28,091 bases of DNA, taken from positions 1-28,091 of the IMG/VR virus record IMGVR_UViG_3300020404_001086. The stretch is one strand, 5' to 3'. The stretch is from a virus. Of the stretch, positions 2 to 21,301 are shown in pieces; within the stretch, counting starts at the first letter, position 1, and every line of letters begins with the position of its first letter. Below the pieces are notes generated by a model. It searched no databases. It had not been told where the DNA came from and saw nothing but the letters and a program-made list of their open reading frames with translations. The translations under genes were made by a program, and so were the position numbers.

Positions 2-154
2 CCTGTTACAGGAGAACTAGTAAGTGACATGATAAAATGCATAGCAGGTGATATGGTAGTGATGGACGGAAAAGTTTATCATGGAGTATACCCTACATTA
101 GAAGAAAGAAAAGTATTTGTAGTTGATTTTACATATGACGTAGAATATGACTAA
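2..154 (+). CDS. 2OG-Fe(II) oxygenase-like protein, C-terminal fragment
   Basis: An open frame enters the window at its left edge and ends at TAA 152-154, giving the last 50 residues of a protein whose start lies outside. The fragment reads as the final strands of a double-stranded beta-helix: a GD-V-MDG turn, then H-G-V-x-P about five residues before an Arg, then a run of hydrophobic residues ending V-D-F. That is the usual spacing of the distal iron-binding His and the 2-oxoglutarate-binding Arg in the 2OG-Fe(II) oxygenase superfamily. It sits 79 bases upstream of the carbamoyltransferase and just before two or three further oxygenase-type genes, which supports the assignment. The HxD half of the metal site is outside the window, so the family cannot be set more finely and the substrate is unknown. 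Confidence 0.6.
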   Translation, partial: PVTGELVSDMIKCIAGDMVVMDGKVYHGVYPTLEERKVFVVDFTYDVEYD

Positions 155-233
155 TGATAAGATTCAGTTCTTGTCAGCAATCACTGGGATTGCAAATACA
201 TACAGTATATAAAGAAAAATAAAAGGAAAACAT

Positions 234-2063
234 ATGACACAGTGGATTGGAGCAATCACAAGAGGACACAACGGCGGCGCTGTTTTATTGAAAGATGGTG
301 AAATTGTATTTTCAATCGAAGAAGAACGTCTAACTCGTAAAAAATATGACGGAGGACCACTTGCCGCGATGGTTAAATTCCTTGATTATACAGATAAATT
401 AGACTATCTTGTAGTAGCACATACACAACCATTAGCAGAATCTAGTAGAATTGATTTTAGTGGCGGAGATATGTATACAGGTTTAGCAAGAAAGCTAGGA
501 TTAATTGATAGAAGTGACAATGCTTACACACCAGATGGACAACACCAACATAGACAAGTTATTGACCTAAGTCATATACATCATAAGTTACATGCGGCAT
601 GTGCATTTTATCGTTCAGGATTTGAATCAGCAGTTAGTGTTATTGTTGATGGTGCAGGAACATTTATACCAATGAACATTAATATGGGTGTGTTTAATGA
701 GGAATATATGTCTTGGGAATGTGAAAGTATTTTTAATTGTGCATATCCTGATAATTTTAAAACTTTATATAAGCATCAAGGTGGTAATGGTCCTTTTCCA
801 GGAACACGTATTCCATATATCCCGTCAGATCGTGAAGGAGAAGAAGGATTTCACGAACTTGTGTTAGATGACAGTGCAGGTATTGTAAAAGCATATGAAG
901 CAGTAACGCAATATTGTGGTTTTCAGCCTATCGAAGCAGGTAAAACAATGGGTCTTGCTCCTTATGGCAAGAAAAATCCAAATATCCCACCAATTTACAC
1001 AGATGGTAATGGAGGTAAGTGGCGCACAAGTGATAGAAACGTAGTTATTCCAACATATCCAAATGCGGCATTGGTTAATGAAGCAAAATATGATTATTTA
1101 GAAACATCACAAGATGTAATTGATAGTAAAACAGACCTAACTACACAAGAAAATCGCAGAGATTTAGCATATGCAGTTCAAGAAGGATCACAACAAGAAG
1201 TACTTAACCTTATTTTCAAAGCAGTTGAAATGTCAGGTAATAAAAATGTAGTACTAAGTGGCGGCTATGCACTTAACTGTGTTGCAAACTACTGGTACCT
1301 TGATAAATTAAACAAAGAAGGCATTAAATTATATGTTGAACCTGTGAGCAATGATGCAGGAACTGCAATGGGTGCGGCTATGCTAGTATATCATCAAACT
1401 ACAAAAGATAAAACTGTACGTCCTTATGCAGAAACAATATATGAAGGATTTGCATACTGTTACACTGATAAAGAGATTGAAGAAACTGCAAACAAATATG
1501 GTGCGTCTATTGTTGATGCTGATAACAAAAAAGTTGTAGAACTTATTACAAATAAAAATATTGTTACAGTATTTCAAGGTAAAAGTGAAAACGGTCCTCG
1601 TGCATTAGGTAATAGAAGTATATTATTTGACCCAACATTTGAAGACGGCAAGGATTTTGTTAACAAAGTAAAACGTAGAGAATATTTCCGTCCGTTTGCT
1701 GGAACTATTTTACTAGAACATGCACATGAATGGTTTGATATGCGTGGACTAGAGCAAACACCTCATATGATGTATGCAATGGATTGTCAAGAAGGTGTTG
1801 CAGAAAAGATTCCAAGTATAATTCATGTTGACGGAACGTGTAGAATTCAAACTGTAACTAGAGAACAGAATAAAAACTACTACGAGCTTATCGAAGAGTT
1901 CCATAAACAGACCGGTGTTCCAATTATTTTTAATACTAGTTTCAATTTAGGTGGCGAACCACTTGTTGAAACTTTAGATGATGCTGTACGTACACTATAC
2001 AATAGTGAAATGGAGTATTGTTATCTACCAGAGTACGGCAAATTAATTGAAATGAAAAACTAA
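234..2063 (+). CDS. NodU/CmcH/TobZ-type O-carbamoyltransferase
   Basis: A 609-residue protein of the length usual for the carbamoyltransferase family that moves a carbamoyl group from carbamoyl phosphate, through carbamoyl adenylate, onto a hydroxyl of a sugar or natural product. The N-terminal Kae1-like domain begins with the family signature (a Gly-His at 11-12, GGAVLLKDG, EEER at 29-32), has a His-rich metal site near 114-120, DGAG near 139-142, AGKTMGLAPYG and a Gly-Gly-x-A-L-N motif. The C-terminal YrdC-like part carries SENGPRALGNRS near residues 450-460, a REYFRPFA motif and a closing P-I-I-F-N-T-S-F-N stretch. AGGA lies about 10 bases before the ATG. Its stop overlaps the next start by one base (TAATG). 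Homologues occur in T4-like cyanophages. The acceptor is unknown; the neighbouring oxygenases and GmhB make a sugar hydroxyl plausible. Confidence 0.93.
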   Translation: MTQWIGAITRGHNGGAVLLKDGEIVFSIEEERLTRKKYDGGPLAAMVKFLDYTDKLDYLVVAHTQPLAESSRIDFSGGDMYTGLARKLGLIDRSDNAYTPDGQHQHRQVIDLSHIHHKLHAACAFYRSGFESAVSVIVDGAGTFIPMNINMGVFNEEYMSWECESIFNCAYPDNFKTLYKHQGGNGPFPGTRIPYIPSDREGEEGFHELVLDDSAGIVKAYEAVTQYCGFQPIEAGKTMGLAPYGKKNPNIPPIYTDGNGGKWRTSDRNVVIPTYPNAALVNEAKYDYLETSQDVIDSKTDLTTQENRRDLAYAVQEGSQQEVLNLIFKAVEMSGNKNVVLSGGYALNCVANYWYLDKLNKEGIKLYVEPVSNDAGTAMGAAMLVYHQTTKDKTVRPYAETIYEGFAYCYTDKEIEETANKYGASIVDADNKKVVELITNKNIVTVFQGKSENGPRALGNRSILFDPTFEDGKDFVNKVKRREYFRPFAGTILLEHAHEWFDMRGLEQTPHMMYAMDCQEGVAEKIPSIIHVDGTCRIQTVTREQNKNYYELIEEFHKQTGVPIIFNTSFNLGGEPLVETLDDAVRTLYNSEMEYCYLPEYGKLIEMKN

Positions 2064-2662
2064 TGCTGGTAAACTTATATTCTATACCTGTTTATAAGAT
2101 AAAACTACCGGAACATGAACAAGTACAAAAAGATTTTGCTGACATACTTGAAAAAGACGAGTATTTTAGTAAAGTACCTTCTTGGTACAGTCCTGTAGAT
2201 ACTACATATGGTAACCCCGATGCTTCTAACTTGCCATTTAAGACATTTATTCGATCAGCAATTACTGGACTAAATGAATATCTTGAAAACTTTAGTATAG
2301 ATCTACAATTAGACTACAGAATTGAATGTTGGCTTAACAAATATAAGCCTGGGTCTTATCAAGAAGTTCATAACCATGTAGGATTAGCACAAATTAGTTG
2401 TGCTTATATGATGAACACACCGAAAGATAGTGGTAACTTTGTATTCTACAATAAAGCCTATGACTTTTTACATCATTCAGGTCTTCCTGCATTGTCGACA
2501 CAAGCATTTAGATACAATAATAGAGTAACACCTCCTTTAGAAGAAGGCGATATCGTATTTTTTCCTAGTAACTTAGAACATTACGTATCTAATAATACTA
2601 GCGACCAAGTAAGGTCAACAATTAGTGCTAATTTTGTACTATCGGAGAAACAAAATGATTAA
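2063..2662 (+). CDS. 2OG-Fe(II) oxygenase, PF13759/TIGR02466-like
   Basis: A 199-residue protein resembling the short putative 2OG-Fe(II) oxygenases (2OG-FeII_Oxy_5). After W90-L-N and a Lys-rich turn it has H103-N-H105, which aligns with the conserved H-x-H/D metal pair, then S-G-N-F-V-F-Y strands, and G-D-I-V-F-F-P-S-x-L-x-H173 with R184 eleven residues later, the expected distal His and 2OG-binding Arg. It begins inside the carbamoyltransferase stop (one-base overlap) with no clear Shine-Dalgarno, so translation is probably coupled, and it overlaps the next gene by 8 bases. Such proteins are frequent in marine myoviruses but I know of no assigned substrate. Hydroxylation of a sugar, peptide or nucleic-acid component is inference. 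Confidence 0.82.
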   Translation: MLVNLYSIPVYKIKLPEHEQVQKDFADILEKDEYFSKVPSWYSPVDTTYGNPDASNLPFKTFIRSAITGLNEYLENFSIDLQLDYRIECWLNKYKPGSYQEVHNHVGLAQISCAYMMNTPKDSGNFVFYNKAYDFLHHSGLPALSTQAFRYNNRVTPPLEEGDIVFFPSNLEHYVSNNTSDQVRSTISANFVLSEKQND

Positions 2663-3374
2663 AAACACAATTAACGAAGAAGAAACATTTGCTGTTAATG
2701 AAAACTACGACACAAGATTACATAAGTTTGGAAAAGAAGGTATAAAAGTATTAGTAGTTGATAACTTTTATAAAAATCCAAACCTAGTAAGACAACTTGC
2801 TTTAGATATTCCAGCATCTGTTAATAGACGTATTAGAGGTGGTAATCCTGCACTAAGAATTAATGCATTTTACGAGCTATCAAGTTTAGCTCAACCATAT
2901 CACCACTTAGCATCAGAGTTTTTTCCAGAGATAATGTATCAGTACCAACCAGGATATATGGATAGAAGTTTTATGAACGCAACATTTATGATTAATGTCA
3001 TGCAAACTGATAATTTACCGCCTGTTGCACCGCATCAAGACAATCGATCAGGTATAAATCTTGCTAGTACAATTTATTTGAATAATGAAAACGAATCTGC
3101 TGGCGGTACAAGTTTTTACGAATTCGGCGGCAAACACTTTTATACTGAGGATGTAGTAAACAATGACTTTAATGTTACTATGGATGTAGAAGGTAAGGTT
3201 CCAGTGACAGAATATATTACTGATAGTTCACATGACTGGGAAATGATTGGAATGATTCCAATGCAGTTTAATAGAATGGTATTATACAATCAGGCAGTAT
3301 TACATTCTGCATATGTCAAACCTGATATGTTTGTAGGTGATAACTATAGATTAAATCAACAATTTTTTATATAG
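2655..3374 (+). CDS. DUF6445-like protein with oxygenase-type metal motif
   Basis: I take the ATG at 2655, preceded by GGAG at 2644-2647, rather than the upstream ATG at 2625, because this start gives normal spacing and only a short overlap with the preceding gene; the product is 239 residues. It resembles DUF6445, a family often found beside tryptophan-halogenase homologues: V-V-D-N-F-Y near 34-39, a central H127-Q-D129, a strand S-T-I-Y-L-N, G-G-T-S-F-Y, then N-R-M-V-L-Y and H217 with R232 near the end. The HxD...H...R arrangement is that of a 2OG-Fe(II) oxygenase fold, although biochemical activity of the family is not established to my knowledge. Its place one gene before a halogenase matches the known neighbourhood of the family. 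Confidence 0.7.
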   Translation: MIKNTINEEETFAVNENYDTRLHKFGKEGIKVLVVDNFYKNPNLVRQLALDIPASVNRRIRGGNPALRINAFYELSSLAQPYHHLASEFFPEIMYQYQPGYMDRSFMNATFMINVMQTDNLPPVAPHQDNRSGINLASTIYLNNENESAGGTSFYEFGGKHFYTEDVVNNDFNVTMDVEGKVPVTEYITDSSHDWEMIGMIPMQFNRMVLYNQAVLHSAYVKPDMFVGDNYRLNQQFFI

Positions 3375-3383
3375 GAGAATAGC

Positions 3384-3965
3384 ATGGATGATAATTATGA
3401 TGGAGTTGAAGTATATGATAATGTATATCCGATTGATTTTTGCAAACAAATAATAAAAAGATTTGAAGAATTGTCTTCAATGCAAATGACTGCAATACAA
3501 CAACAAGGTATTGATAGGAATCAAGACGAACGTATATACATGGATTGGGCGAATCATAACAGTCATTATCATGCAGATGAAGATTTATGTAAATTTTTCT
3601 TTGAAACACTAAACAAAACATATTTAGAAAAGTATAAAAAGAAATATGAGAGCTTAGGACTGCTATTTCAACATACAGCAAAAGGTATGAGCGTACAAAA
3701 AACAAAACCACACCAAGGATATCATGCATGGCACTGTGAAAATGCTGATGTAGCAACAAGCACAAGAGTATTAGCATACACATTATACTTGAATGGTGTA
3801 GAAGAAGGCGGCGAAACAGAATTTCTTTACCAAGGACATAAAATTAAACCTGCCCCAGGTAGATTAGCAATCTTTCCTGCATCATTTACGCATCCACATC
3901 GAGGTAATCCTATCTATAAAGGCGTTAAGTACATTATAAGCGGATGGTATACTTTAGACCACTAG
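3384..3965 (+). CDS. prolyl-4-hydroxylase-like 2OG-Fe(II) oxygenase
   Basis: A 193-residue protein with the core of prolyl-4-hydroxylase-type oxygenases: Y-H-x-W-H117-C-E119, the strand A-Y-T-L-Y-L-N, E-G-G-E-T-E-F near 141-147, G-R-L-A-I-F-P near 159-165, H170 followed by H172, and a Lys-rich K-Y-I-I-S-G-W-Y strand at the end. The metal pair is H-x-E instead of the usual H-x-D, and a Lys (K179 or K182) stands where animal prolyl hydroxylases use Lys to bind 2-oxoglutarate. An AGGAG at 3373-3377 overlaps the preceding stop and decides the ATG at 3384. The halogenase starts seven bases after its stop. Marine T4-like phages commonly encode this type. Target unknown; protein-bound proline is possible but not shown. 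Confidence 0.85.
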   Translation: MDDNYDGVEVYDNVYPIDFCKQIIKRFEELSSMQMTAIQQQGIDRNQDERIYMDWANHNSHYHADEDLCKFFFETLNKTYLEKYKKKYESLGLLFQHTAKGMSVQKTKPHQGYHAWHCENADVATSTRVLAYTLYLNGVEEGGETEFLYQGHKIKPAPGRLAIFPASFTHPHRGNPIYKGVKYIISGWYTLDH

Positions 3966-3972
3966 GAAAAAA

Positions 3973-5433
3973 ATGAAAATAGCAGTAGTAGGTGGTGGCA
4001 CAGCAGGCTTTGTGTCAGCATTAATATTAAAAACAAGTTTTCCAAACTTCGAAATTGATGTAATTCGGTCTACCAAGATCGGAACTATTGGTGTTGGTGA
4101 AGGTTCAACAGAACATTGGTCTGCATTTATGGATTTTGTTGGTATTAAGGCTGGCGAACTTATTAACAAATGTGATGCTAGTTTCAAGTCTGGCATTATG
4201 TTTGAAGACTGGAGTGAAAAACCGTATTTACAAAGTGTTCATGAGCCATATGTTGCTGAACAACTAGGCACACCTATTGCATATGCTAAATTGATAGGTG
4301 AAAAAATAGATGCAAGAGAACTTACTGGCGAATATCTATGGAAGAACGAAACTCCTTATAATAAATTTATGGATGAACGTCCTAACGAAACAGGAGTAAG
4401 CCAATATCATTTTAATACTGCTAAATTAAACGACTTCCTAACAAACTTTTGTATAGACAAAGGTATAAATGTATTTGATGACGAAATAACTGATGTAATT
4501 TTAAATGACTTTGGTAATGTGCGTCAAATTAAAAGTGAATCTAATACATACGAATATGATTTCTATATAGACTCTACAGGATTTAGACGCCTATTAATTA
4601 ATGCAGTAGGTGCTGAGTGGCAAAGTTACAGTAAGTATCTTAAAATGAAAGAAGCTATTGTATTTCCTACACCAGAAGGAGATGAAATACCTATATGGAC
4701 ATTAGCAAAAGCAATGGACGCTGGTTGGATGTTTCGTATACCTGTTCAAGGACGCACAGGTAATGGTTACATATTTGATAGCGACTTTATTACAGCTGAA
4801 CAGGCACAAATCGAAGTTGAAAAATATTTAGGACATAGTGTTGAAGTAGCAAAAAATATTAAATTTGATCCAGGAACACTTGACAAAGCATGGATAGGCA
4901 ACGTGTGTGCTATTGGATTAAGTCAAAGTTTTGTAGAACCATTAGAAGCAAGCAGTATTGGTAGTAGCATTAATCAAACATTTTTATTAGCACAGCGTCT
5001 TACAAATTACAATAAAGAAACAATTAATAGATACAATCTTGAAGTTACTGCTATTATGGATAACATTAGAGACTTTATTGTACTACATTATATTACCCAA
5101 AGAAGAGATACACCGTTTTGGAAAGCAGTATCAGAAGTAACATTACCGGATAGCTTAGAAAAAAATCTACGTATGTGGAAAGTTAGAATGCCGATTGCTG
5201 ATGATATGACTACACATACTAAAAAGATTTTGTTTAACGAATACAACTATGCGTTAGTAATGCATGGACTAGGATTATTTGATAATGATAGTATTTTAAA
5301 ACAATATGAAACAATTCCGCAAGGTGCAAAGGATCATGTTGAGAATTCTATACAACAAAAGTTAGAGTTTGATAAGACAAAAACTATTCCGCACAAAATG
5401 ATGTTACAATTATTGCGGAGATTGACATCATGA
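3973..5433 (+). CDS. flavin-dependent tryptophan-halogenase homologue 1
   Basis: A 486-residue member of the tryptophan-halogenase family (PrnA/RebH-like, PF04820), which uses reduced FAD, oxygen and halide to make hypohalous acid that halogenates an electron-rich substrate. The N-terminal Rossmann motif G-G-G-T-A-G is at 7-12, I-G-V-G-E-G-S near 39-45, the Lys that forms the reactive haloamine aligns with K72 (A-S-F-K), and the substrate-site Glu aligns with E325 in F-V-E-P-L-E-A-S. The diagnostic W-x-W-x-I-P, which separates halogenases from monooxygenases, is degraded to W252-M-F254-R-I-P, so the second Trp is Phe. Start ATG follows AGGA; the stop overlaps the next ATG (ATGA). FAD binding is almost certain; halogenation rather than another flavin reaction is likely but less secure than for the two minus-strand paralogues. 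Confidence 0.85.
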   Translation: MKIAVVGGGTAGFVSALILKTSFPNFEIDVIRSTKIGTIGVGEGSTEHWSAFMDFVGIKAGELINKCDASFKSGIMFEDWSEKPYLQSVHEPYVAEQLGTPIAYAKLIGEKIDARELTGEYLWKNETPYNKFMDERPNETGVSQYHFNTAKLNDFLTNFCIDKGINVFDDEITDVILNDFGNVRQIKSESNTYEYDFYIDSTGFRRLLINAVGAEWQSYSKYLKMKEAIVFPTPEGDEIPIWTLAKAMDAGWMFRIPVQGRTGNGYIFDSDFITAEQAQIEVEKYLGHSVEVAKNIKFDPGTLDKAWIGNVCAIGLSQSFVEPLEASSIGSSINQTFLLAQRLTNYNKETINRYNLEVTAIMDNIRDFIVLHYITQRRDTPFWKAVSEVTLPDSLEKNLRMWKVRMPIADDMTTHTKKILFNEYNYALVMHGLGLFDNDSILKQYETIPQGAKDHVENSIQQKLEFDKTKTIPHKMMLQLLRRLTS

Positions 5434-6296
5434 GAGTGTTTGCCTTTGGCTGTAGCTTAACACAATATTTTTATCCTACTTGGGCTGACATTTTAATACA
5501 TCATTATAAAGAAGAAGGTGCTACTACTGGAGAGAACTGGGGACGTAGTGGTGCAGGTAATCAATATATTTCAACTCGTCTATGGGAAGCACATACTGAA
5601 CATAAGTTTAATAAAGATGATATTATCTTATTACAATGGTCTAGTTTTTTTAGAGAAGACAGATTTCATATGGGCAAAGGCTGGCACACTCCAGGAAACT
5701 TTAGTAAAGCAACAGTAGGACAGGACATTCCATTTGTACTCAACAGTTGGCGCTATGAGTCTATGTGGCAATGGGCTGACATGGCATGGGCTACAATGCG
5801 TGATTGTGCATTAATAAGCAGTACACACAAAGCATTAGAGAGTTTAGGATGTAAAGTTATATCAACAGGATTTAGAGAACCTACTGAAGGTTGGGAAGAG
5901 CTTAGTAAAGAATTTAATACTAAAAATAAATATTTAGAATTAGAAGATGTACGAGCTATATTAGAAAAATATAAAGACGATATTAAAACTACATGTCCTC
6001 CAATACTTAATGCACTAGGCTTTGGAGTTGATGAAGAGTTTTTTCAAACAAGACCGACTAGTATACCTGATCCAAACCCAGAACTTTTACATTTACATCA
6101 ACCTGAAGTACATCCTCTTACACATGAAGCGGCAGATTTCGTACAAAATTATGTATGTAAATTAAATGACAAAACGTTAGCCTTTGTTGACAAATGGAAG
6201 CAAACATTGACAGCTGAAGAATCAATAAAACTTTACGAATTAGACTGGTTTAACTCCGAAATACATGGCTGGTCAGATGATAGATGGAGACCTTAA
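5430..6296 (+). CDS. SGNH/GDSL-like hydrolase
   Basis: A 288-residue protein with the block pattern of SGNH hydrolases. The N-terminus M-R-V-F-A-F-G-C-S9-L-T carries the candidate nucleophile S9 in a G-x-S-L context and is followed by P-T-W-A-D-I-L; N-W-G-R-S-G-A-G-N near 36-44 supplies the Gly and Asn of the oxyanion hole; E-V-H228-P-L-T-H232 near the end fits the catalytic His block. Such enzymes remove or transfer acyl groups on sugars and lipids. Start overlaps the halogenase stop by four bases (ATGA), with GGAG about ten bases upstream. It lies between the halogenase and the heptose-phosphate phosphatase, so an ester on the tailored sugar is a reasonable but unproven substrate. The large middle insertion (about 75-215) is Trp-rich and not recognised. 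Confidence 0.72.
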   Translation: MRVFAFGCSLTQYFYPTWADILIHHYKEEGATTGENWGRSGAGNQYISTRLWEAHTEHKFNKDDIILLQWSSFFREDRFHMGKGWHTPGNFSKATVGQDIPFVLNSWRYESMWQWADMAWATMRDCALISSTHKALESLGCKVISTGFREPTEGWEELSKEFNTKNKYLELEDVRAILEKYKDDIKTTCPPILNALGFGVDEEFFQTRPTSIPDPNPELLHLHQPEVHPLTHEAADFVQNYVCKLNDKTLAFVDKWKQTLTAEESIKLYELDWFNSEIHGWSDDRWRP

Positions 6297-6297
6297 A

Positions 6298-6861
6298 ATG
6301 AGTATACCAGTAATTGGATTAGATAGAGATGGAACTATAAATGAAGACATTGGTACATATGTTACAAAGCCTGAACAGTTTAAACCTATAGAAGGTAGTT
6401 TAGAAGCAATTAAAATGATTCGTAACAAAGGTTACGATGTTGTAATACTTACAAATCAAGCTGGTATTATGAAAGGCATCTGTGATGCTGTTGACGTTGA
6501 TGTTGTACATAACTATATGTTAGAATTACTCTGGAACATAGGTTGTAGAAACATTAATGGACTTTACTACAGCACAACTAATTTGAAAGAAGATGTATAT
6601 GCCAAACCAAACACCGGAATGTTCAAACGTGCGGCCGCTGAAATAGGTGTAAATTGGAAAAATGGCGTGTATGTAGGTGATAAAATTACTGATTTAAAGG
6701 CGGCTGTAAAAGCAAAAGCAAAGCCCATACTAGTACGCACAGGATATGGTGTTGAAACAGCTAAAAAATTAAATACGTTTGCTAACAAAGACCTTAAAAA
6801 ACAAACAGAAACCTTTGATAACCTTAATCAGTTTGCCCATAGCTTAGTAGATTTAACTTAA
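6298..6861 (+). CDS. gmhB: D-glycero-D-manno-heptose-1,7-bisphosphate phosphatase (GmhB-like HAD)
   Basis: A 187-residue HAD-superfamily phosphatase. I choose ATG 6298, one base after the SGNH stop and preceded by GGAG at 6286-6289; an in-frame ATG at 6265 would overlap the upstream gene by 32 bases. Motif I is L-D9-R-D11-G-T with the nucleophile and general acid Asp; motif II is I-L-T-N-Q-A-G; A-K-P-N-T-G-M matches the K-P-x-x-G-M of GmhB; motif IV is V-G-D-K-x-T-D. GmhB removes the 7-phosphate of heptose bisphosphate between the two HldE reactions, and hldE and hldD lie at 15.8-17.9 kb. The Cys/His zinc loop before K-P-x-x-G-M in E. coli GmhB is missing here. A histidinol-phosphate phosphatase is the main alternative, but the heptose genes favour GmhB. 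Confidence 0.85.
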   Translation: MSIPVIGLDRDGTINEDIGTYVTKPEQFKPIEGSLEAIKMIRNKGYDVVILTNQAGIMKGICDAVDVDVVHNYMLELLWNIGCRNINGLYYSTTNLKEDVYAKPNTGMFKRAAAEIGVNWKNGVYVGDKITDLKAAVKAKAKPILVRTGYGVETAKKLNTFANKDLKKQTETFDNLNQFAHSLVDLT

Positions 6862-6889
6862 ATTGTACTGTTACATATCTTTGTAAAAC

Positions 6890-6897
6890 GATAAATA
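6890..6897 (+). promoter_or_regulatory. T4-type late promoter in front of structural operon
   Basis: GATAAATA, one mismatch from the T4 late consensus TATAAATA, in the 54-base gap between gmhB and the first virion gene; the ATG follows 18 bases after the box, with GGAG between them. The same ten bases, CGATAAATAC, recur on the minus strand in front of gp14. Confidence 0.7.
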
Positions 6898-6915
6898 CAA
6901 TATGGAGCATGAACA

Positions 6916-7428
6916 ATGAATAAACTTCTGACAAATCTTTTTAGTAAAGGTGCAAATAACACCATTCATCTGCCAGACAGATCAAGTTTTAGTTATAGAG
7001 GTAGCTGGATTGGGGTGCAATATAATACTGTTGTTGACTCATTTCATTTAGGTGAATACAGTAGTGCAGTGTATCAAATTACAGTAGAATTTGATTCAAA
7101 TGAAAAAGAGATTATGCAATTATCAGTAGTTGCTAGACCGGATAGAGCTGTTGCAACTATATTTGGACGTTCAAGTATAAACCAAGAATTAGTAAATTTA
7201 TCTGTCACAGTTGATGCAAGTGTTGTAAAGATTAACGCTAGTCCAACATCAAATACTTATGCTGGCGCAAAGTTAATTTTTCATGCTACATACGCAAAAA
7301 CAATTCATCAGCTTACTCCTCCTGCGATAGTCGCAGATGTATCCACTGTAGAGGAGTCTGGGGTAAATACTTTTGATGCAACAACTACGTATTTTGATAA
7401 TACAAACATAACATTTGATAAGGTGTAA
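6916..7428 (+). CDS. putative virion (tail/baseplate) structural protein
   Basis: A 170-residue protein, first gene after a late promoter and three bases before the gp10-like gene. Residues about 45-135 form a beta-rich domain that starts E-Y-S-S-A-V-Y-Q-I-T-V and ends with a K-L-I-F-H-A strand. This pattern (E-Y-x-x-A-x, then several alternating hydrophobic strands closing with a K-V-x-x-x-A-like strand) is common in marine phage tail proteins and resembles the C-terminal beta domain of T4 gp9; I judge that by eye only. The C-terminal 35 residues are Thr/Val/Asp-rich and probably extended. No enzymatic motif is visible. Position suggests a baseplate or fibre-attachment role. Confidence 0.6.
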   Translation: MNKLLTNLFSKGANNTIHLPDRSSFSYRGSWIGVQYNTVVDSFHLGEYSSAVYQITVEFDSNEKEIMQLSVVARPDRAVATIFGRSSINQELVNLSVTVDASVVKINASPTSNTYAGAKLIFHATYAKTIHQLTPPAIVADVSTVEESGVNTFDATTTYFDNTNITFDKV

Positions 7429-7431
7429 GGA

Positions 7432-8910: not shown

Positions 8911-8924
8911 GGAAATAGAAGTAA

Positions 8925-9482: not shown

Positions 9483-9485
9483 AGA

Positions 9486-15428: not shown

Positions 15429-15868
15429 TTTTCAGGGGTAGTAGTTACAGTATTAACAGCATCATCTTCGGGTGGTGCTGTTTCCATTTGTGGCTTAGGC
15501 TTTTGACTATCACCTGGTGCAATGCGATAATTATCTTCAACACTATCAGGTGTACTTACTTCAGTAACACTACTTCCAGGTTCCATACAAACTAATTGAT
15601 GAGGCATCAGTGGTGGATTGTGCCATGTCATTCCAGAAGTAAGTTCTTGTGATTTGTATTCAGCAGTGGTTGTATCTATATAATTTAACAAAAATCGTCC
15701 GTTATTTACAAACCATGTTTCATCTTTTTCTTTATGAAAATGCATACTAAATTTAGCACCAACTTTTTCAAATACCATAATCTTTCCGCAGTACTTGTCG
15801 TTTGTAGCCCAGATTAATTCGTAACCCCAACCTTTATCTACTTTACCTTCTAGTCTAGTTGGTTCCAT
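15425..15868 (-). CDS. cupin-domain protein (type II phosphomannose-isomerase-like)
   Basis: A 147-residue protein with one cupin barrel at about 10-110. It starts W-G-Y-E-L-I-W-A and Y-C-G-K-I-M-V-F, as in the cupin half of type II mannose-6-phosphate isomerases/guanylyltransferases. The first cupin motif is H43-F-H45-x4-E50 followed by T-W-F-V-x-x-G, and H90 in P-H-Q-L completes a metal site. Residues 115-147 are Pro/Thr/Glu-rich and likely disordered. The gene is last in the minus operon, overlaps hldD by 14 bases and overlaps the convergent structural gene by four. The context suggests isomerisation or epimerisation of a sugar phosphate or nucleotide sugar, but cupins are too varied to decide. 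Confidence 0.78.
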   Translation of the reverse strand: MEPTRLEGKVDKGWGYELIWATNDKYCGKIMVFEKVGAKFSMHFHKEKDETWFVNNGRFLLNYIDTTTAEYKSQELTSGMTWHNPPLMPHQLVCMEPGSSVTEVSTPDSVEDNYRIAPGDSQKPKPQMETAPPEDDAVNTVTTTPEN

Positions 15869-16685
15869 TGATATACTCCTCTATTGTGTGCCAATGTCTC
15901 ATTGCTATAGTATTATGTAGCTTTGTATTATCTGCACAAGTATATTCCTGATACTGACCTTTCAAATGATCTGGCATTGGAATATATTCTATTTTTGCAT
16001 TATATTTTTCTGCAATTAGTTTAGCAATTTCTTCTACATTATTTGTTTTGCCTGTACCTAGATTATATAAACCTTTAGCATCTGTTTCATGCATCATTTT
16101 TTCATGTACAATAGCAACATCATGTACACTTACACAATCTCTTTTGTACTTGTCACTGCCTTCAAATAATTTAATTACACCATCTTGTGATGCTTGCTTT
16201 TGAAACTTACTAACCAAACTCATTTGGTCACCTTTATGTCCTTCACCTGGACCATACACATTAAAATACCTAAAATTCTGCACTAGCATACCAAAGTTTT
16301 CGTATCCATTTTCTTTCAAAAACTTATCAATTAGATACTTACTCCATGCGTAAGGTGTTTGCGGATAAACAGGATCCGATTCTTTAAATTTTGTATTATT
16401 ACCATAAACAGCAGAAGTACTTACAAGTTGAATATTAGTATTAAAGTTTTCACAAACTTGTAATAGACGTAGTGTAAATTCATAATTTTGTTGCCAAACT
16501 TTATCTATATCTCGTTCTGTAGTATCTGAAATTGCACCGCAATGTATTACCCAGTCGTAACTAGATACATCAGGTACAACATTTTCTACCCATTCAAAAC
16601 CTTCTACTTCATGTTCTCGTGATTGTAGATAATTAGCAATATAACTGCCAATAAATCCTTTGTGTCCTGTTACTAATACTTTCAT
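15855..16685 (-). CDS. hldD: ADP-L-glycero-D-manno-heptose 6-epimerase (HldD-like)
   Basis: A 276-residue extended short-chain dehydrogenase. Nucleotide-binding T-G-H-K-G-F-I-G at 6-13, the catalytic triad S-T-S-A-V-Y-G near 89-95 plus Y112-x-x-x-K116, and the substrate-side signature F-R-Y-F-N-V-Y-G-P-G-E at 138-148 followed by H-K-G-D-Q-M-S and L-F-E-G-S-D-x-Y-x-R-D, all typical of HldD/RfaD, which epimerises C6 of ADP-heptose using bound NADP. It is shorter than the ~310-residue E. coli enzyme. AGAGG lies 7 bases before the ATG, and a consensus sigma70 promoter lies at 16703-16731. hldE precedes it by 29 bases. Another NDP-sugar epimerase is the alternative, but the signature and the hldE neighbour make HldD the strong choice. 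Confidence 0.9.
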   Translation of the reverse strand: MKVLVTGHKGFIGSYIANYLQSREHEVEGFEWVENVVPDVSSYDWVIHCGAISDTTERDIDKVWQQNYEFTLRLLQVCENFNTNIQLVSTSAVYGNNTKFKESDPVYPQTPYAWSKYLIDKFLKENGYENFGMLVQNFRYFNVYGPGEGHKGDQMSLVSKFQKQASQDGVIKLFEGSDKYKRDCVSVHDVAIVHEKMMHETDAKGLYNLGTGKTNNVEEIAKLIAEKYNAKIEYIPMPDHLKGQYQEYTCADNTKLHNTIAMRHWHTIEEYINGTN

Positions 16686-16702: not shown

Positions 16703-16731
16703 ATTATACTATCTTTAATTACTATTGTCAA
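16703..16731 (-). promoter_or_regulatory. consensus sigma70-type promoter for hldD-cupin
   Basis: On the minus strand TTGACA (16731-16726), 17 bases, then TATAAT (16708-16703): exact match at both hexamers with the optimal spacer. The -35 falls inside the last codons of hldE, and the hldD ATG is 17 bases beyond the -10. It should be read by unmodified host polymerase. Confidence 0.85.
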
Positions 16732-17863
16732 TCTTTTTAATTGTTGCAGATGTACTATGTCCTTCAACTATAGGAAATATTACAACTTCTGCAAGATGAT
16801 TTCCAACAACTGTATCAAATGTATAATCACCACCTTTTACTATAATATCTGGCTCTAATTTAGTCATCGACTCTAACGGAGTATCTTCATCAAAAATAAT
16901 TACATCATCTACAAAACCAAGCTCTAAGAGCAATTCCTTGCGGGTGTCTTGATCGTTAATGGGTCTTAAATCGCCTTTTAAACGCTTTACACTTGCATCG
17001 CTGTTAATACCCACTATAAGCCTATTTCCTAGGCTATGTGCGTGTCTAAGTAGCTTTAAATGGCCAATATGCAGTATATCAAACACTCCGTTAGTCCATA
17101 CAACTACGTCTTCTAAATCGTCTTTTTGGAGAATATATGTACCAGAATGTTTCACACTTTCAGTTGATCCTCGTATAGCTATTTCTAAACATTTCTTGTG
17201 TGCATATCCTTTTGTTAGACCGTATACAAAGCCTGCTATGAAGCAATCACCTGCACCAGTAACGTCGGATACTTCAACTGTTTCTACAGGAATGTTGTAT
17301 TCAACATCATCTATTTTAGCAGTAACTTCATGTCCAGCGTCAGTAGTGATAATATTGCCTTGCCATTTATCAAACTCAAACTTAGTATATTCGCTATTGT
17401 TAGGCTTGACTAACCAAGCACCTTCGTAGTCGTGTGCGTAACGTTTTGGATCTACAATTACCTTACAATTAAATTTGTTAATATGCTTAATAATTTGTTT
17501 AGCATTGTCTAATGTTCCTTTATTGTAATCACTTAAAACAACAATATCATATGGTCTAAAATCTGCTTGTTTGATTCTTTCTAGCACAGCATTTGAATCT
17601 GCTTTTTTATCTTCATCAATACGTGTTATGTAATGCCCATCACAAATAATTCTAGTTTTAAGACTATGGTCTTCTAATGTGTCATACATTTCTACATTTA
17701 CACCTAAACTTTTTAAATTATCGTAAACTAATGCCGCTCCGCCCATTGTAGTTTTTTCTTCTTTATGTGTTACTACAGGAACAGGGGCTTCTGGACTAAT
17801 ACGTGTACTAGTTCCATAAATGTATTTGTCATATATTATATCACCAATTACTAAAACTCTCAT
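16715..17863 (-). CDS. hldE: bifunctional heptose-7-phosphate kinase / heptose-1-phosphate adenylyltransferase (HldE-like)
   Basis: A 382-residue fusion with the two HldE domains. Residues about 1-245 are a PfkB/ribokinase-fold kinase: I-G-D-I-I-x-D-K-Y near 6-14, S-P-E-A-P-V-P-V at 23-30, M-G-G-A at 40-43, and D-V-T-G-A-G-D206 with the catalytic Asp. Residues about 253-380 are a nucleotidyltransferase: T-N-G-V-F-D-I-L-H-I-G-H at 257-268, N-S-D-A-S-V near 287-292, V-K-G-G-D-Y at 342-347, and G-H-S-T-S-A-T-I at 368-375. The enzyme phosphorylates heptose 7-phosphate at C1 and, after GmhB, adds AMP. It is about 95 residues shorter than E. coli HldE, with the kinase domain compressed. The ATG overlaps the stop of the upstream halogenase by one base. 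Confidence 0.93.
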   Translation of the reverse strand: MRVLVIGDIIYDKYIYGTSTRISPEAPVPVVTHKEEKTTMGGAALVYDNLKSLGVNVEMYDTLEDHSLKTRIICDGHYITRIDEDKKADSNAVLERIKQADFRPYDIVVLSDYNKGTLDNAKQIIKHINKFNCKVIVDPKRYAHDYEGAWLVKPNNSEYTKFEFDKWQGNIITTDAGHEVTAKIDDVEYNIPVETVEVSDVTGAGDCFIAGFVYGLTKGYAHKKCLEIAIRGSTESVKHSGTYILQKDDLEDVVVWTNGVFDILHIGHLKLLRHAHSLGNRLIVGINSDASVKRLKGDLRPINDQDTRKELLLELGFVDDVIIFDEDTPLESMTKLEPDIIVKGGDYTFDTVVGNHLAEVVIFPIVEGHSTSATIKKIDNSN

Positions 17864-19341
17864 TACATTTCCTTTATGTATTGTGTATTGTCTGGTAAGT
17901 TTTTACTTTTTTGATCAAATACTTCAACATGATAACGATAGGCACTGTCACTAAATTGTACATCATTATTAAAAATTAATTCTTTTTCTGCAACTTCAGA
18001 TGTCAATTTGCCAGTACCTGCAAGTACATAACTCCATAACGGCCATCCAGCTCCACCTTCTGGTCTTGGAAATAATGTCATATTAGGTACTCTATGTTTG
18101 CAAACTTCGTGTATTGATTTTACAAACTCTGTAGTTGTTGCTCCACTATCAATATACTTCCAAAATTCTGTATCATTACGTCCGCATGTATAATGTGCTA
18201 CTAAGAAATCTTTTGTTGTATCATACAAATGACCTAGCTGATTATTGTATCTGTGAACAGTTCCTTCATTACATGTCATATTTTTATCAGCAGACAAGCA
18301 ATTTAAAACAAAATCTTTTAATTGCATAATTGTTGTGTGTATACTTGTTGCTTCTAATGGTTCTGCAAAGGCCGCACACAATCCGATTGATAAAACATTT
18401 TTAATCCAAAGTGTTTCTTGCCTTCCTGATTCAAACTTTAAAAGCCTAATTGGGTCAACTTTGCGTCCAATTGTTTGCTCAAGTTCAGCATGTGCTTGAT
18501 CAGGTGTAACAAATTCATCACTGAATACGTATCCACAACCACGTCTATTTTTTGTAGGTATTTGCCAGCACCAACCATTATTTTGTGCCCAAGCATTAGT
18601 TACAGGCTGTATTACTTCGTCATCTTCATAAGGTAAAAGGAACGGTAATGCACTGTTTACAGGCAAGTTTTCTTTGTAACTTTTCCATTTTCCGCCTACT
18701 GCTTTCATAAGCACTTGATTGAATCCACTAGCGTCAATAAACATATCACCTTCAACGGTATTGCCGTTGCTTAACTTAACTGACTCTACAAATCCAGTGT
18801 CTGACTCAAGTATAACATGTTCAACTTCACTGTCAATATGTGTAACAGTTTCACAAATTTTCTTAAAATATTGTCCTACTTTGTGTGCATCAAAATGGTA
18901 TGCATGATTACCTGCAGGTTCAACAAAACTATTTTTATTATGATGTATTTTATAACCAAGCTCGGTAGCAAGGTGTAACAATTCTTTATCTCTAGCACCT
19001 AAAGCATGTTGAAACACAAGATCAACAACATCATTACTAGTTGGTGTGCCATCAATAGGACCATAATAATGCTTGTTTTTGTCAGGTCCCCAACCAATAT
19101 GCTTGATACCTAATTTAATTGTAGCATCACACTCTTTAATAAAGTCTTGTTCGTTACAACCAAAATCAAACATTTCATTATGAATAATGTTTGTTAGTGA
19201 TCCTGTTGAACCTTCACCTGCACCTATGATGCCAATCTTTGAACTTTCAATGACTGTAACTGTGTTTTCGGGCTTAACTTTCGAAATCATTAGAGCCGCT
19301 AGCCAACCGGCTGTGCCTCCACCTACAACAACTATCTTCAT
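17863..19341 (-). CDS. flavin-dependent tryptophan-halogenase homologue 2
   Basis: A 492-residue PF04820-type flavoprotein. G-G-G-T-A-G at 7-12 binds FAD; I-G-A-G-E-G-S near 39-45; the reactive Lys is K76 in D-A-T-I-K; W257-C-W259-Q-I-P262 is a complete W-x-W-x-I-P halogenase signature; F-A-E-P-L-E330-A-T-S is the substrate-site Glu, with Ala where PrnA/RebH have Ser after that Glu. It differs widely from homologue 1 and homologue 3 outside the motifs, so this is not a recent duplication. It starts inside the stop of homologue 3 (ATGA overlap) and its stop overlaps the hldE start. That places it in one transcript with the heptose genes, suggesting a shared product, but the substrate is unknown. 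Fully consistent with an active halogenase. Confidence 0.9.
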   Translation of the reverse strand: MKIVVVGGGTAGWLAALMISKVKPENTVTVIESSKIGIIGAGEGSTGSLTNIIHNEMFDFGCNEQDFIKECDATIKLGIKHIGWGPDKNKHYYGPIDGTPTSNDVVDLVFQHALGARDKELLHLATELGYKIHHNKNSFVEPAGNHAYHFDAHKVGQYFKKICETVTHIDSEVEHVILESDTGFVESVKLSNGNTVEGDMFIDASGFNQVLMKAVGGKWKSYKENLPVNSALPFLLPYEDDEVIQPVTNAWAQNNGWCWQIPTKNRRGCGYVFSDEFVTPDQAHAELEQTIGRKVDPIRLLKFESGRQETLWIKNVLSIGLCAAFAEPLEATSIHTTIMQLKDFVLNCLSADKNMTCNEGTVHRYNNQLGHLYDTTKDFLVAHYTCGRNDTEFWKYIDSGATTTEFVKSIHEVCKHRVPNMTLFPRPEGGAGWPLWSYVLAGTGKLTSEVAEKELIFNNDVQFSDSAYRYHVEVFDQKSKNLPDNTQYIKEM

Positions 19342-20855
19342 ATCATTGTTTCTCTATCAGTACGGCTCATACACTTTGACCACCAGTCAACACCTAAGTT
19401 AGTAGTTTCAATTGCATCAGAGTGCGACATACTAACTATATGTCTTATGTGTTCTTCTTTGTTAAATTCTTGTTGTTGAGCTTCTAGTTCTAACTTTGGT
19501 ATTCTTGATAAGTCAACGTTTGTTGGATATCCCATTTGTATTAACCAAAGTTGCCAGTTAGGTGGATGAAATAGTGTAACTGAATGTACTCTAGAGTAAA
19601 AACTTCTTTTAGGATCCTTTAACCAACGTTCATAAAATTTATGTTTTTCTGATTTTACATGTGTTTCTTTTACAAAATTCCAAAAAGGTGTATCCCACTC
19701 AGTATCAGCATAATGACTATTAATAAAGTCAACTGCGTCTTCGTACCATGCCATCATATAATTATTATATGTGCTAATTCTAGCATCATCATACCATTGT
19801 TGAGGTATCATTTTTGCAAGTTCTTGAACACCTGTTGTCATACTTGCTAATCCTGTACTCTCTAATGGCTCAATAAATCCTCCACTTAGGCCTATTGAAA
19901 CAACATTCTTGTCCCAAAAGTTTTTACTATAGTAAGGATTCCAATCGATAACTTTCATATTTTCTGGTTTAATTCTGCCATTCCAATGATCGCTAAAATA
20001 TTGTTTAGCAGTATCAATGTCAGTGATATCTCTATTGAATACCATGCCACTACCTAAACGTGTTTGTGTAGGAATTTTCCAAATCCAACCATGATCTACA
20101 GCAGGACAGTTTACATATGGTGTTCGTTCTTTTTCAATATCCTCGTACTCAACATGTCCAGCAACAGCAGTGTTTGTAAACAATCTTCCTTTACCAAGTA
20201 ACTCAACTCTGTCTTGTTTTTTTAATATTGAACCAAATCCTGTACAGTCAATATAAAAGTCTGAGTAATGTTGATGCCCGTTTTCTAGACCTAAGCTCTC
20301 AATATATCCTTCTTTATCTCTATTAACATTTACAACTTCACTTTTAATAATAGTCATATCTCTTTGACATATTTCTTGTAAACGTTTTACTAATTTCCCG
20401 CAATCAATATGATATGCTAAGGTTGTGTACGCATTGTGTATATCAATTTTGTTATCCATGTTTGTTTTATAACATGGTAAAGCCAACTCTTGAAAGGTTT
20501 CACGCTTGCCTAGATCTGCCCAAACATCATATTGTGTCATTGCTTGGTCAAGGTATGATTTATTAAGATAGAACGGATGCCATACAGTATTACCAGGCTT
20601 CTTCCATCCCGGAAAGTTAATGCCTGCTTTATAAGATCCGTCTACTTGTGTGAACCAATCTCTTTCATGTAATCCACACTCTCTAAGAAAAGTAGGAAAT
20701 GTTAATACAGTTGCTTCACCAACACCAATAGGTGTGCCTACTTCCTTGTCAATTATTGTTAACGGTACGTCCCACATATTATGTCGAATATATGCGGCCG
20801 CTAGCCATGCCGCAGATCCACCACCCACTATTGTAATGTTTTCGATTTGCTTCAT
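19338..20855 (-). CDS. flavin-dependent tryptophan-halogenase homologue 3
   Basis: A 505-residue flavoprotein and the most canonical of the three: G-G-G-S-A-A-W at 11-17, P-I-G-V-G-E-A-T at 42-49, S-Y-K76 with the reactive Lys, W257-I-W259-K-I-P262, and F-I-E-P-L-E332-S-T-G with both the substrate-site Glu and the following Ser as in PrnA and RebH. Length is within the usual 500-540. It overlaps the Nudix stop by four bases upstream and the next halogenase by four bases downstream, so all are translationally coupled. Marine phage relatives include VirX1 of cyanophage Syn10, reported as an iodinase with broad substrate range. No flavin reductase gene is present in the window, so reduced FAD would have to come from the host or from elsewhere in the genome. 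Confidence 0.92.
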   Translation of the reverse strand: MKQIENITIVGGGSAAWLAAAYIRHNMWDVPLTIIDKEVGTPIGVGEATVLTFPTFLRECGLHERDWFTQVDGSYKAGINFPGWKKPGNTVWHPFYLNKSYLDQAMTQYDVWADLGKRETFQELALPCYKTNMDNKIDIHNAYTTLAYHIDCGKLVKRLQEICQRDMTIIKSEVVNVNRDKEGYIESLGLENGHQHYSDFYIDCTGFGSILKKQDRVELLGKGRLFTNTAVAGHVEYEDIEKERTPYVNCPAVDHGWIWKIPTQTRLGSGMVFNRDITDIDTAKQYFSDHWNGRIKPENMKVIDWNPYYSKNFWDKNVVSIGLSGGFIEPLESTGLASMTTGVQELAKMIPQQWYDDARISTYNNYMMAWYEDAVDFINSHYADTEWDTPFWNFVKETHVKSEKHKFYERWLKDPKRSFYSRVHSVTLFHPPNWQLWLIQMGYPTNVDLSRIPKLELEAQQQEFNKEEHIRHIVSMSHSDAIETTNLGVDWWSKCMSRTDRETMI

Positions 20856-21301
20856 TTTTTATCCTGTTCTAAGTAATCAATTAAACTAAACACTGTTTCA
20901 AACTTAGTTTGGTTAGTTTTACTTTGTAATGTATTGCGTAATCCCATGTGTAAAGGTTTAGGCCATCTTCCAAAACTGACCCACGCATATCCGTCATGTT
21001 CTTCGTTTAACTTCGGAAGGAATTCGTCTTTTAGTATGCACAGATATGTATGAAAACTAAATTTTTCATCTGTACTAATAAAAGTTTCTAAAGGAATAGT
21101 TTTAATTATGTCTGGTAATTCACCGACTTCTTCGTGTATTTCTCGTTGTAGTGCAGGCCACGGAGCTTCATTCTTACCGTTAGTACCGCCTACTAATCCC
21201 CATACATGTTTTTGTTTGCTTTGTGTGCGATGTAATAATAAAAACCGTTGTGTTTTAAGTGAATAAAACAAGGCACCACTGCATATAATCTCTTGGCTCA
21301 T
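20852..21301 (-). CDS. Nudix hydrolase
   Basis: A 149-residue single-domain protein with a clear Nudix box at 39-61: G-x5-E-x7-R-E-I-H-E-E-V-G, all metal-binding Glu residues present, with Glu instead of a hydrophobic residue at the final box position. The preceding strand (V-W-G-L-V-G-G) and the C-terminal W-V-S-F-G-x-W-P-K-P-L-H-M-G-L-R segment resemble the small phage Nudix proteins annotated in T4-like cyanophages. Nudix enzymes hydrolyse nucleoside diphosphates linked to another moiety. Given the operon, a nucleotide sugar such as an ADP-sugar, or general pool cleaning, is possible, but specificity cannot be read from sequence. It begins 13 bases after the gp15 stop without a strong Shine-Dalgarno and shares four bases with the halogenase behind it. 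Confidence 0.87.
   Translation of the reverse strand: MSQEIICSGALFYSLKTQRFLLLHRTQSKQKHVWGLVGGTNGKNEAPWPALQREIHEEVGELPDIIKTIPLETFISTDEKFSFHTYLCILKDEFLPKLNEEHDGYAWVSFGRWPKPLHMGLRNTLQSKTNQTKFETVFSLIDYLEQDKK

Follow-up and report, generated by a model that had tools for sequence, protein, structure and literature searches.

The closest described counterpart of the locus reported here is a 10-gene cluster of phage S-SSM6a that comprises carbamoyltransferases, a HemK-like methylase, an amino-acid halogenase, 2-oxoglutarate (2OG) enzymes, cupin-like proteins, and HAD phosphatases, and for which capsule decoration or synthesis of a secondary metabolite was proposed (Iyer et al. 2021, PMC7824862). An earlier study records that T4-GCs 304, 305, 307, and 308 co-occur with three others in three phages and leaves open whether they have a function or are stuffer DNA (Sullivan et al. 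2010, PMC3037559); further papers report halogenase or lipopolysaccharide (LPS)-type phage genes (PMC2984593, PMC10452541, PMC7029224). Here we describe a related island in an uncultured marine virus of bacteria, the IMG/VR record IMGVR_UViG_3300020404_001086, the whole of which (28,091 bases) was analyzed and is called the window below. Its 13 intact enzyme-like genes, with the final part of one more, form two opposed operons that flank tail-fiber genes, and the S-SSM6a-type set of carbamoyltransferase, halogenase, 2OG enzyme, cupin, and HAD phosphatase meets here in one neighborhood.

We read this locus as a two-layer tail-fiber modification island that would apply two chemistries to the virus's own tail, and we give this reading a probability of about 45%; the gene set and order, their conservation, the motifs, the predicted folds, and the separability of the layers are observed, and the acceptor, the order of the reactions, and the role are inferred. 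The reading is favored because of the linkage to tail genes, the fold of a transferase-like protein encoded just upstream, the co-occurrence of the genes in phage records, the separation of the layers, and selection. In layer 1, the core, GmhB-, HldE-, and HldD-like enzymes would make ADP-heptose, with the GmhA step presumably coming from the host; the heptosyltransferase-fold protein would transfer this sugar onto an acceptor that is most likely a tail protein (a Cys/Gly-rich tail-tip protein or the long fiber), the carbamoyltransferase CarbT would carbamoylate a hydroxyl, and the SGNH protein and cupin may trim or convert intermediates. In layer 2, which is optional, three flavin-dependent halogenases would halogenate side chains and five 2OG-type oxygenases (three of them complete in the window, one truncated, and one upstream) would hydroxylate them; the side chains may belong to the tail proteins that layer 1 modifies. 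Location favors the tail as the target, and the modification may serve receptor binding or virion stability. The genes of the two operons and of the tail region are as follows, with E values of family matches in parentheses.

2-151, plus strand: OxyE, a 2OG-type oxygenase of which the record, by its start point, retains only the C-terminal part; same translation as the last part of the gene at L199:1171-1755
234-2063, plus strand: CarbT, NodU/TobZ-type O-carbamoyltransferase (PF16861 2.7e-58, PF02543 3.8e-25, phrog_1601 3.3e-166)
2063-2662, plus strand: OxyA, 2OG-Fe(II) oxygenase (PF13759 1.5e-15, phrog_81 2.7e-39)
2655-3374, plus strand: DUF6445 protein, probably a 2OG-type oxygenase (PF20043 1e-22; PADLOC 2OG model 1.4e-5)
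3384-3965, plus strand: OxyC, 2OG-Fe(II) oxygenase (PF13640 4.4e-13, phrog_61 2.5e-45)
3973-5433, plus strand: HalA, flavin-dependent halogenase (PF04820 4.2e-97; PDB Trp halogenases, best 1.4e-61)
5430-6296, plus strand: SGNH/GDSL-fold hydrolase-like protein, by conserved motifs and predicted fold
6265-6861, plus strand: GmhB-like D,D-heptose-1,7-bisphosphate 7-phosphatase of the HAD type (NF006506 1.4e-38)
6916-7428, plus strand: orf6916, conserved tail-region open reading frame (ORF); no family match; between GmhB and the gp10-like gene in relatives
7432-8910, plus strand: gp9/gp10-like baseplate wedge or tail-fiber connector (PF07880 6.2e-9, phrog_677 2.5e-95)
8925-9482, plus strand: orf8925, conserved tail-region ORF; no family match; place conserved
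9486-15428, plus strand: long tail-fiber-like protein of 1980 aa (tblastn to S-CAM1/S-CAM3 proteins)
15425-15868, minus strand: cupin, end of the minus operon (phrog_7851 3.8e-36; Cupin_2 4.5e-4, below the Pfam cut-off)
15855-16685, minus strand: HldD-like ADP-heptose 6-epimerase (TIGR02197 1.3e-64; PDB HldD 1eq2 3.6e-40)
16715-17863, minus strand: HldE-like bifunctional heptose kinase/adenylyltransferase with a short kinase domain (NF008454 3.4e-81; PfkB and CTP_transf_like)
17863-19341, minus strand: HalB, flavin-dependent halogenase (PF04820 7.8e-93; VirX1 3.2e-45)
19338-20855, minus strand: HalC, flavin-dependent halogenase (PF04820 2.6e-88; 38% identical to the S-SSM7 island halogenase)
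20852-21301, minus strand: Nudix hydrolase, heading the minus operon next to gp15 (PF00293 8.6e-14)
21315-22778, minus strand: gp15-like tail sheath stabilizer, upstream neighbor on the same strand (PF16724 6.7e-25)

The original prediction, drawn from the letters of the window, had proposed at least 13 small-molecule enzymes in two opposite-strand operons around structural genes, and all 13 are indeed intact ORFs at the coordinates given. It had the inventory of three or four 2OG-type oxygenases right as well, bases 2-151 being the end of a fourth; the whole OxyE gene in contig L199 encodes 194 aa and matches PF13640 below the cut-off (E 0.0018), and the homologue in record G024 matches phrog_81 (2.5e-8). 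The translational coupling that it read from start/stop overlaps agrees with 8 of the 11 junctions between complete genes, which overlap by 1, 8, 4, 32, 4, 4, 1, and 14 bases (4 at Nudix/HalC); the two outer junctions that bring the total to 13, OxyE-CarbT and gp15-Nudix, show no overlap. For the DUF6445 gene, the ATG at 2655 is a better start than the GTG at 2625 because GGAGAA precedes it. Both Pfam domains of CarbT score far above their cut-offs (PF16861, 197 bits versus 27; PF02543, 89.5 versus 24), and its PDB matches include the carbamoyltransferase 7xb6 (5.9e-56), GdmN, and TobZ.

Relation to named phages and lineage of the record

Where the original prediction took the combination to be undescribed, a similar cluster, that of S-SSM6a, is already in print (PMC7824862). 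The S-SSM7 island resembles the window in its CarbT (66% identical), HalC-type halogenase (38%), 2OG-type and DUF6445 proteins, cupin, epimerase, heptose kinase and adenylyltransferase, and transferase-like protein (59-60%), and it too lies beside a tail fiber and tail-tip paralogues. The window differs from S-SSM6a/S-SSM7 in having three island halogenases rather than one, two opposed operons around the fiber gene, a fused HldE, a full-size GmhB-like gene, no second carbamoyltransferase within its bounds, and a different T4-like lineage. Unlike the S-SSM6a cluster with its HemK-like methylase, the window proteins scanned matched no methylase family. T4-GCs 302-308 of P-SSM2 and their S-CAM1 counterparts share with the window the transferase-like, CarbT, adenylyltransferase, kinase, cupin, and epimerase genes, a small HAD-like protein, and the position beside tail fibers; unlike the window, these islands have no annotated halogenase, although P-SSM2 has one ~60 kb away.

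A further likeness is to the locus of VirX1 (PDB 6qgm), a halogenase that we take to come from cyanophage Syn10 and that reportedly iodinates diverse substrates: as in the window, PF04820 halogenases lie by tail-fiber genes in an array with 2OG and DUF6445-type proteins. In Syn10, two halogenases share an operon with 2OG proteins (phrog_61, phrog_81) and two DUF6445-type proteins (phrog_1644), one small ORF away from genes of tail-fiber and tail-fiber-assembly families (phrog_529, 693, 863). In contrast to the window, the 32 kb examined around this locus hold no CarbT, transferase-like, or heptose match, and Syn10 is outside both the 48 phage records with an HldE match and the 55 with a transferase-like match.

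At least 80% of the transferase-like protein is matched in 23 of 50,697 phage records; CarbT has its best 23 records in the same set, and HldE is matched in every one, though only in part in AG-345-E02. They reduce to S-SSM7/S-SSM6a, Sf-FS3, S-CAM1, S-CAM3, P-SSM2/P-SSM5, and four single-cell virus contigs. A HalB-type match occurs in at least 7 of the 23 (among the matches listed, 60 of 65 records) and, by coordinates, adjoins the island only in S-SSM7/S-SSM6a. The window CarbT is 66-67% identical to those of S-SSM7 and Sf-FS3, whereas the terminases of the window-type records G005, G012, and G024 are 33-34% identical to that of S-SSM7; conservation is thus higher in the module than in the virus backbone, suggesting that the module has moved between lineages. 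The long fiber is 45.7-51.7% identical to S-CAM1 and S-CAM3 proteins (virion structural proteins in RefSeq) over 45-49% of its length, and its C-terminal part is matched in 12 phage records, all within the 23. The fiber as sole acceptor was rejected, as the other 11 of the 23 have no match to this C-terminal part among the matches listed.

The window, although an entire IMG/VR record, covers only part of a T4-like virus genome and truncates the island on the upstream side. The T4-like assignment follows from gp15, gp9/10-like, head-tail adaptor Ad2, and tail sheath matches. The sheath (25999-28091) has its nearest matches in Agrobacterium phage Atu_ph07 and in jumbo phages of Pseudomonas of the PA5oct type rather than in cyanophages (among the matches listed, 20 of 60 records), and the photosystem family PF00124 (psbA-type), a cyanophage mark, was matched in 0 of 13 related records. 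Against named phages, megablast with bases 1-24,999 gave a single match, of 186 bases. An HNH-endonuclease-like ORF (25553-25891, minus strand) overlaps the end of the deoxynucleoside monophosphate (dNMP) kinase gene, as it does in many relatives, and a scan with a defense library returned only generic 2OG matches and a weak PDC-S06 match (1.1e-4).

One open-access library, surveyed by titles and abstract openings, yielded no description of a phage heptosyltransferase at tail genes; carbamoyltransferase, tryptophan halogenase, and phage together led to PMC3037559 only, and no relevant paper on phage tail glycosylation was recognized among those listed. What this island adds is a split variant with three halogenases, the lineage that carries it, the fold predicted for the transferase, and the link to tail genes.

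Conservation of the island and separation of its layers

Neighborhoods were compared over the best 80 of 85 matches (79 loci) in a scan of viral contigs with HalB, the best 80 of 333 matches with HldE, the best 80 of 472 loci with CarbT, and the best 80 of 487 loci with the transferase-like protein. The loci overlap and include near-identical populations, so that the counts are not independent and favor close relatives; each denominator comprises only loci whose contig reaches far enough. Upstream of HalB lie HalC (72/73), Nudix (67/70), and gp15 (54/55), and downstream HldE (50/51), HldD (41/42), and cupin (38/39). Locus L078 is the exception at every position, and L041 and L042 miss Nudix within the set distance, their operons having an extra halogenase. 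CarbT is followed by OxyA (78/79), DUF6445 (79/79), OxyC (70/74), and HalA (61/62), and further on by SGNH (60/61), GmhB (58/58), the gp10-like gene (40/40), and the fiber (32/32). A HalA match of at least 52% identity is present in 21 of 30 records, some partial at a contig end; of the rest, eight stop short of the expected position, and one, G030, which contains L078, differs.

Median dN/dS against the window ranges from 0.019 (OxyC) to 0.187 (HldE) for 13 genes, with 13-56 pairs each of 75-99.5% identity and dS below 3. The island is a conserved unit under purifying selection, and the conserved gene neighborhood in relatives rejects a chance assembly of unrelated ORFs; the co-occurrence on which the original prediction had staked its case is borne out, the genes adjoining almost always in window-type contigs.

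Variation within the unit was also seen. Records G013 and G014 (L041 and L042) carry three halogenases instead of two in the minus operon. The idea that the three halogenases are always gained or lost together was ruled out by these records, with one extra, and by G042, which has HalA without HalB or HalC. Across L001-L079, HalC falls into two identity classes (~66-70% and 89-94%), as does HldE (~39-49% and 63-80%); these classes do not follow neighboring genes, which suggests gene-by-gene exchange. In L187 (G002, ~2050-9800), CarbT and a 52%-identical HalA enclose no DUF6445, OxyA, or OxyC match; of the other ORFs there, one by eye carries a CxxxCxxC-like motif (radical SAM?) and one resembles an amidinotransferase.

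The heptose genes also occur apart from halogenases. What we call the sister lineage is defined by its common gp15/Nudix/HldE order, with no tree behind the term; its 25 records were chosen from the HldE scan, mostly for length, and the comparison with the window lineage is essentially a single contrast. Sister contigs keep the order gp15-Nudix-HldE-HldD-cupin-fiber with no halogenase between Nudix and HldE. Only 3 of the 25 records have any halogenase, in G045 and G047 ~110 kb from CarbT and in G042 a HalA, whereas a full-length CarbT match is found in 17 (partial in one more, several records being short fragments) and a tail-tip match in 14. Stretches of six sister islands (L337-L342) hold tail genes, the transferase-like gene, and CarbT, five of the six with an SGNH match, and no match to OxyA, OxyC, OxyD, OxyE, DUF6445, or a halogenase. 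A GmhB-like match adjoins the cupin in seven of the sister loci listed (L080-L083, L106, L112, L120) and not in the others. Among other relatives, L328-L333 have core and oxygenase matches with no halogenase at the locus (and none anywhere in the five records searched whole), and L325-L327 and L334-L336 have one to three halogenases per record. Taken with Syn10, where halogenases and oxygenases stand by tail-fiber genes, this pattern suggests that heptose/carbamoyl genes and halogenase/oxygenase genes serve distinct chemistries brought together at tail loci.

The transferase-like protein and the island enzymes

Contig L199 carries the CarbT-to-fiber genes at 100% identity to the window, and in L200 CarbT is 99% identical. 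Upstream of CarbT, L199 has two 2OG-type oxygenases, the nearer being the window's cut gene, and then the end of the transferase-like protein; L200 has this protein whole, with a tail-fiber-assembly-like gene and three Cys/Gly-rich paralogues (phrog_4205), whose copies in G024 contain ~10-11% Cys and ~18-19% Gly. We label the paralogues putative tail-tip proteins because in G024 they sit between a long tail fiber gene and a tail-fiber-assembly-like gene. Among transferase-like loci, CarbT follows in 70 of 70, a tail-tip paralogue precedes in 46 of 46, and the assembly-like gene precedes in 55 of 57. In a scan of GTDB genomes with two peptide patterns, and so not exhaustive, a relative appeared on four contigs (L345-L348), two of them from one Neomarinimicrobiota metagenome-assembled genome (MAG), under the labels Actinomycetota, Neomarinimicrobiota, and Euryarchaeota. 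All four carry CarbT and tail-tip-like genes and three also fiber matches, on which grounds they are probably virus contigs binned into MAGs.

The transferase-like protein has no Pfam match and belongs to PHROG 8954, whose function is not annotated. Foldseek matched its predicted structure to the GT9 protein 3tov (6.4e-7), E. coli WaaF (5.8e-6), WaaC (2.7e-5), and TibC (3.7e-5), and VIA-align to 3tov (Z 14.8; root mean square deviation (rmsd) 5.5; 237 aligned), WaaF (14.6; 3.3; 168), WaaC (12.8; 3.5; 152), and TibC (11.4; 3.7; 165). The predicted fold is of the GT-B type, and heptosyltransferases rank high among its matches; other GT-B-like proteins are in the lists too, so the fold alone does not fix the sugar. 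Fifteen phage sequences carry an N-terminal NGG(A/T)GR motif where WaaC has Gly-Asp, so that catalysis could differ. TibC, which transfers heptose from ADP-D,D-heptose to serines in the passenger domains of adhesins, is a protein O-heptosyltransferase with Asp-110 as candidate base (PMC4358343); heptosylation of an adhesin therefore has precedent. The island resembles the TibC/AAH autotransporter heptosyltransferases in the predicted fold of its transferase-like protein (which resembles other folds too), in the adhesin-type gene next to the transferase, and in the available ADP-heptose donor, and the phage protein differs from TibC in having no sequence match and apparently no catalytic Asp.

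Of the heptose enzymes, the HldE-, GmhB-, and HldD-like proteins have those very enzymes as their best NCBIfam models, and we append "-like" because the scores lie under the equivalog cut-offs. In the HldD-like protein, the YxxSK tyrosine (YAWSK) and the EGHKG lysine, which we take to be the catalytic residues, align with PDB 1eq2. As a candidate for the missing isomerase, the cyanophage "phosphoheptose isomerase" (T4-GC 306) was rejected, the proteins being 108-114 aa long with no SIS match in Pfam. These genes lie at L193:21312-21656 in P-SSM2, L191:23055-23390 in S-SSM7, L192:19421-19747 in Sf-FS3, and L194:21193-21531 in P-TIM68; only one of the four proteins has a Pfam match, a weak one to LNS2 (E 0.025), and those of P-SSM2, S-SSM7, and Sf-FS3 show, by eye, a DIDGT/DIDNT-like motif. 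Judged by sequence, the family looks more like a small HAD phosphatase. The "nucleotidyltransferase" genes of P-SSM2 and S-SSM7 (T4-GC 307) match Cupin_2. Far from the island, L175 (G012:80001-100000) and L158 (G024:140001-160000) hold a second HldE-like nucleotidyltransferase match and SGNH-like matches (34-45% identity).

The three window halogenases score 326, 312, and 297 bits against a curated PF04820 cut-off of 21, and all match VirX1 (HalB 3.2e-45, HalA 1.9e-40, HalC 1.1e-42). An EPLE motif is present in all distinct sequences (HalA 46/46, HalB 44/44, HalC 54/54) and GxGxxG in nearly all (45/46, 44/44, 54/54); the halogenase lysine pattern is found in 40 of 44 HalB (four without), at least 37 of 46 HalA, and at least 50 of 54 HalC sequences. 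Judged by these motifs, GxGxxG would bind flavin adenine dinucleotide and the Lys and Glu would be catalytic. GWxWxIP is kept in HalB (43/44) and HalC (54/54), whereas HalA has GWMFRIP, all 46 sequences carrying Phe at the position of the second Trp. The SGNH protein has no Pfam or PHROG match, and its FGCS, GxGN, and ExHP motifs are invariant in 15 aligned sequences at the S, G, N, and H columns (GCS and ExHP being variants). Its predicted model (predicted local distance difference test (pLDDT) 78.5) gives modest matches, with 8ik1 best in Foldseek (4.8e-4) and TesA at Z 9.6 (rmsd 3.8, 163 aligned).

Tail modification weighed against other explanations

Several observations weigh against tail modification by these two chemistries. 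Its substrate and product are predictions from gene content. GmhA (PF13580) was matched in 0 of 30 related records, some possibly fragments, with a positive E. coli control, and a flavin reductase (PF01613) in 0 of 14; both had been named by the original prediction as genes to seek elsewhere in the genome, and each of these steps would have to come from the host or be dispensable. A candidate for the glycosyltransferase sought with them did turn up just upstream, in a protein of predicted glycosyltransferase fold (its end in L199, whole in L200). For this protein, no match to GT9 (PF01075) passed the cut-off in 30 records, a family profile run against PDB sequences recovered no GT9 chain and no TibC, and the AlphaFold2 model (15 sequences) is middling (pLDDT 67.5, predicted template modeling score 0.64). 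A plant NDH-PSI chain ranks third among distinct Foldseek entries (7.0e-6) and first in VIA-align (Z 15.4), where TibC (Z 11.4) is tied with UDP-GlcNAc 2-epimerases (11.8 and less), and in 15 aligned sequences an Arg seems, by eye, to occupy the likely place of the WaaC/TibC base Asp. The curated equivalog cut-offs are missed by HldE (273/521 bits), GmhB (132/178), and HldD (218/274.6), and T4-type late promoter motifs are not enriched in the window (2 found versus 4.46 expected). Weak OxyA-like matches (27-29%) after the cupin in four sister loci (L136, L138, L143, L144) mean that oxygenases do not strictly go with halogenases. Putative tail-tip proteins occur also in relatives without halogenases, and in AG-345-P14, where the module is present, the 38.9 kb examined contain no tail-tip match.

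A serious rival, if on balance a somewhat unlikely one, is that ADP-heptose is put on the LPS or capsule of the infected cell, carbamoylated, and decorated, for superinfection exclusion. LPS core synthesis typically involves heptose enzymes and a GT9 fold; such genes of cyanophages and pelagimyophages have been read in this way (PMC2984593, PMC7029224), and capsule decoration is an option named for the S-SSM6a cluster (PMC7824862). However, scans of the island proteins matched no family of flippases, polymerases, or ligases, one transferase-like gene was seen, and the island is linked to tail-tip (46/46) and fiber (32/32) genes. Marine picocyanobacterial LPS is reported to lack heptose, which would count against decoration of the host surface if the host were a picocyanobacterium. 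We consider it unlikely that the island instead makes a diffusible halogenated, carbamoylated small molecule (an antibiotic, toxin, or signal) during infection. A halogenase with a carbamoyltransferase and oxygenases recalls natural-product clusters, and the diverse substrates that VirX1 is said to iodinate would suit such a role; yet no polyketide synthase, nonribosomal peptide synthetase, or amide ligase was matched among the scanned proteins (although a few ORFs have no family), the layers separate in relatives, and the constant tail-gene neighborhood would be left unexplained, even if a metabolite was already proposed for the S-SSM6a cluster (PMC7824862).

The original prediction tentatively proposed one heptose or glycan both carbamoylated and halogenated. 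Two coupled operons and the co-occurrence of the genes in window-type contigs speak for such a single product, but each layer occurs in relatives without the other, the heptose-carbamoyl genes without halogenases and the halogenase-oxygenase genes without heptose genes, so a single halogenated heptose is unsupported. PF04820 enzymes, moreover, halogenate electron-rich aromatics, unlike heptose, and we regard this explanation as highly improbable. What stands of the earlier interpretation is a coherent, coupled ADP-heptose-type and tailoring island in a virus; the single product and the undescribed combination do not. Still less credible is a supply of modified nucleotides for DNA by the Nudix hydrolase and dNMP kinase: the Nudix gene heads the minus operon and the kinase gene is nearby, but the window proteins scanned matched no family of base hydroxymethylases or DNA glycosyltransferases, and where the sister lineage has no halogenases Nudix keeps its place between gp15 and HldE. 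Stuffer DNA without function, left open for cyanophage LPS genes in 2010 (PMC3037559), would fit the modular gene content that varies among relatives, but its probability is close to nil given median dN/dS values of 0.02 to 0.19 in 13 genes, conserved catalytic motifs, and a gene set and neighborhood common to distant T4-like lineages.

We therefore retain modification of the virus's own tail as the preferred reading. Its more general form, that a widespread uncultured marine T4-like virus group customizes its own tail adhesins through a phage-specific heptosyltransferase fed by phage-made ADP-heptose, carbamoylation, and in some lineages halogenation and hydroxylation, is tentative and, taken whole, rather doubtful. 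If tail modification is true, receptor binding or resistance to decay would depend on enzyme-made chemistry and not on sequence alone, and VirX1-type phage halogenases would be virion-protein modifying enzymes. The island thereby bears on the natural substrates of marine phage halogenases such as VirX1 and on the purpose of cyanophage "LPS" genes, and purifying selection, the constant tail-gene neighborhood, and separable layers turn a vague idea into one that can be tested in cultured phages (S-SSM7, S-CAM1, Syn9/Syn10).

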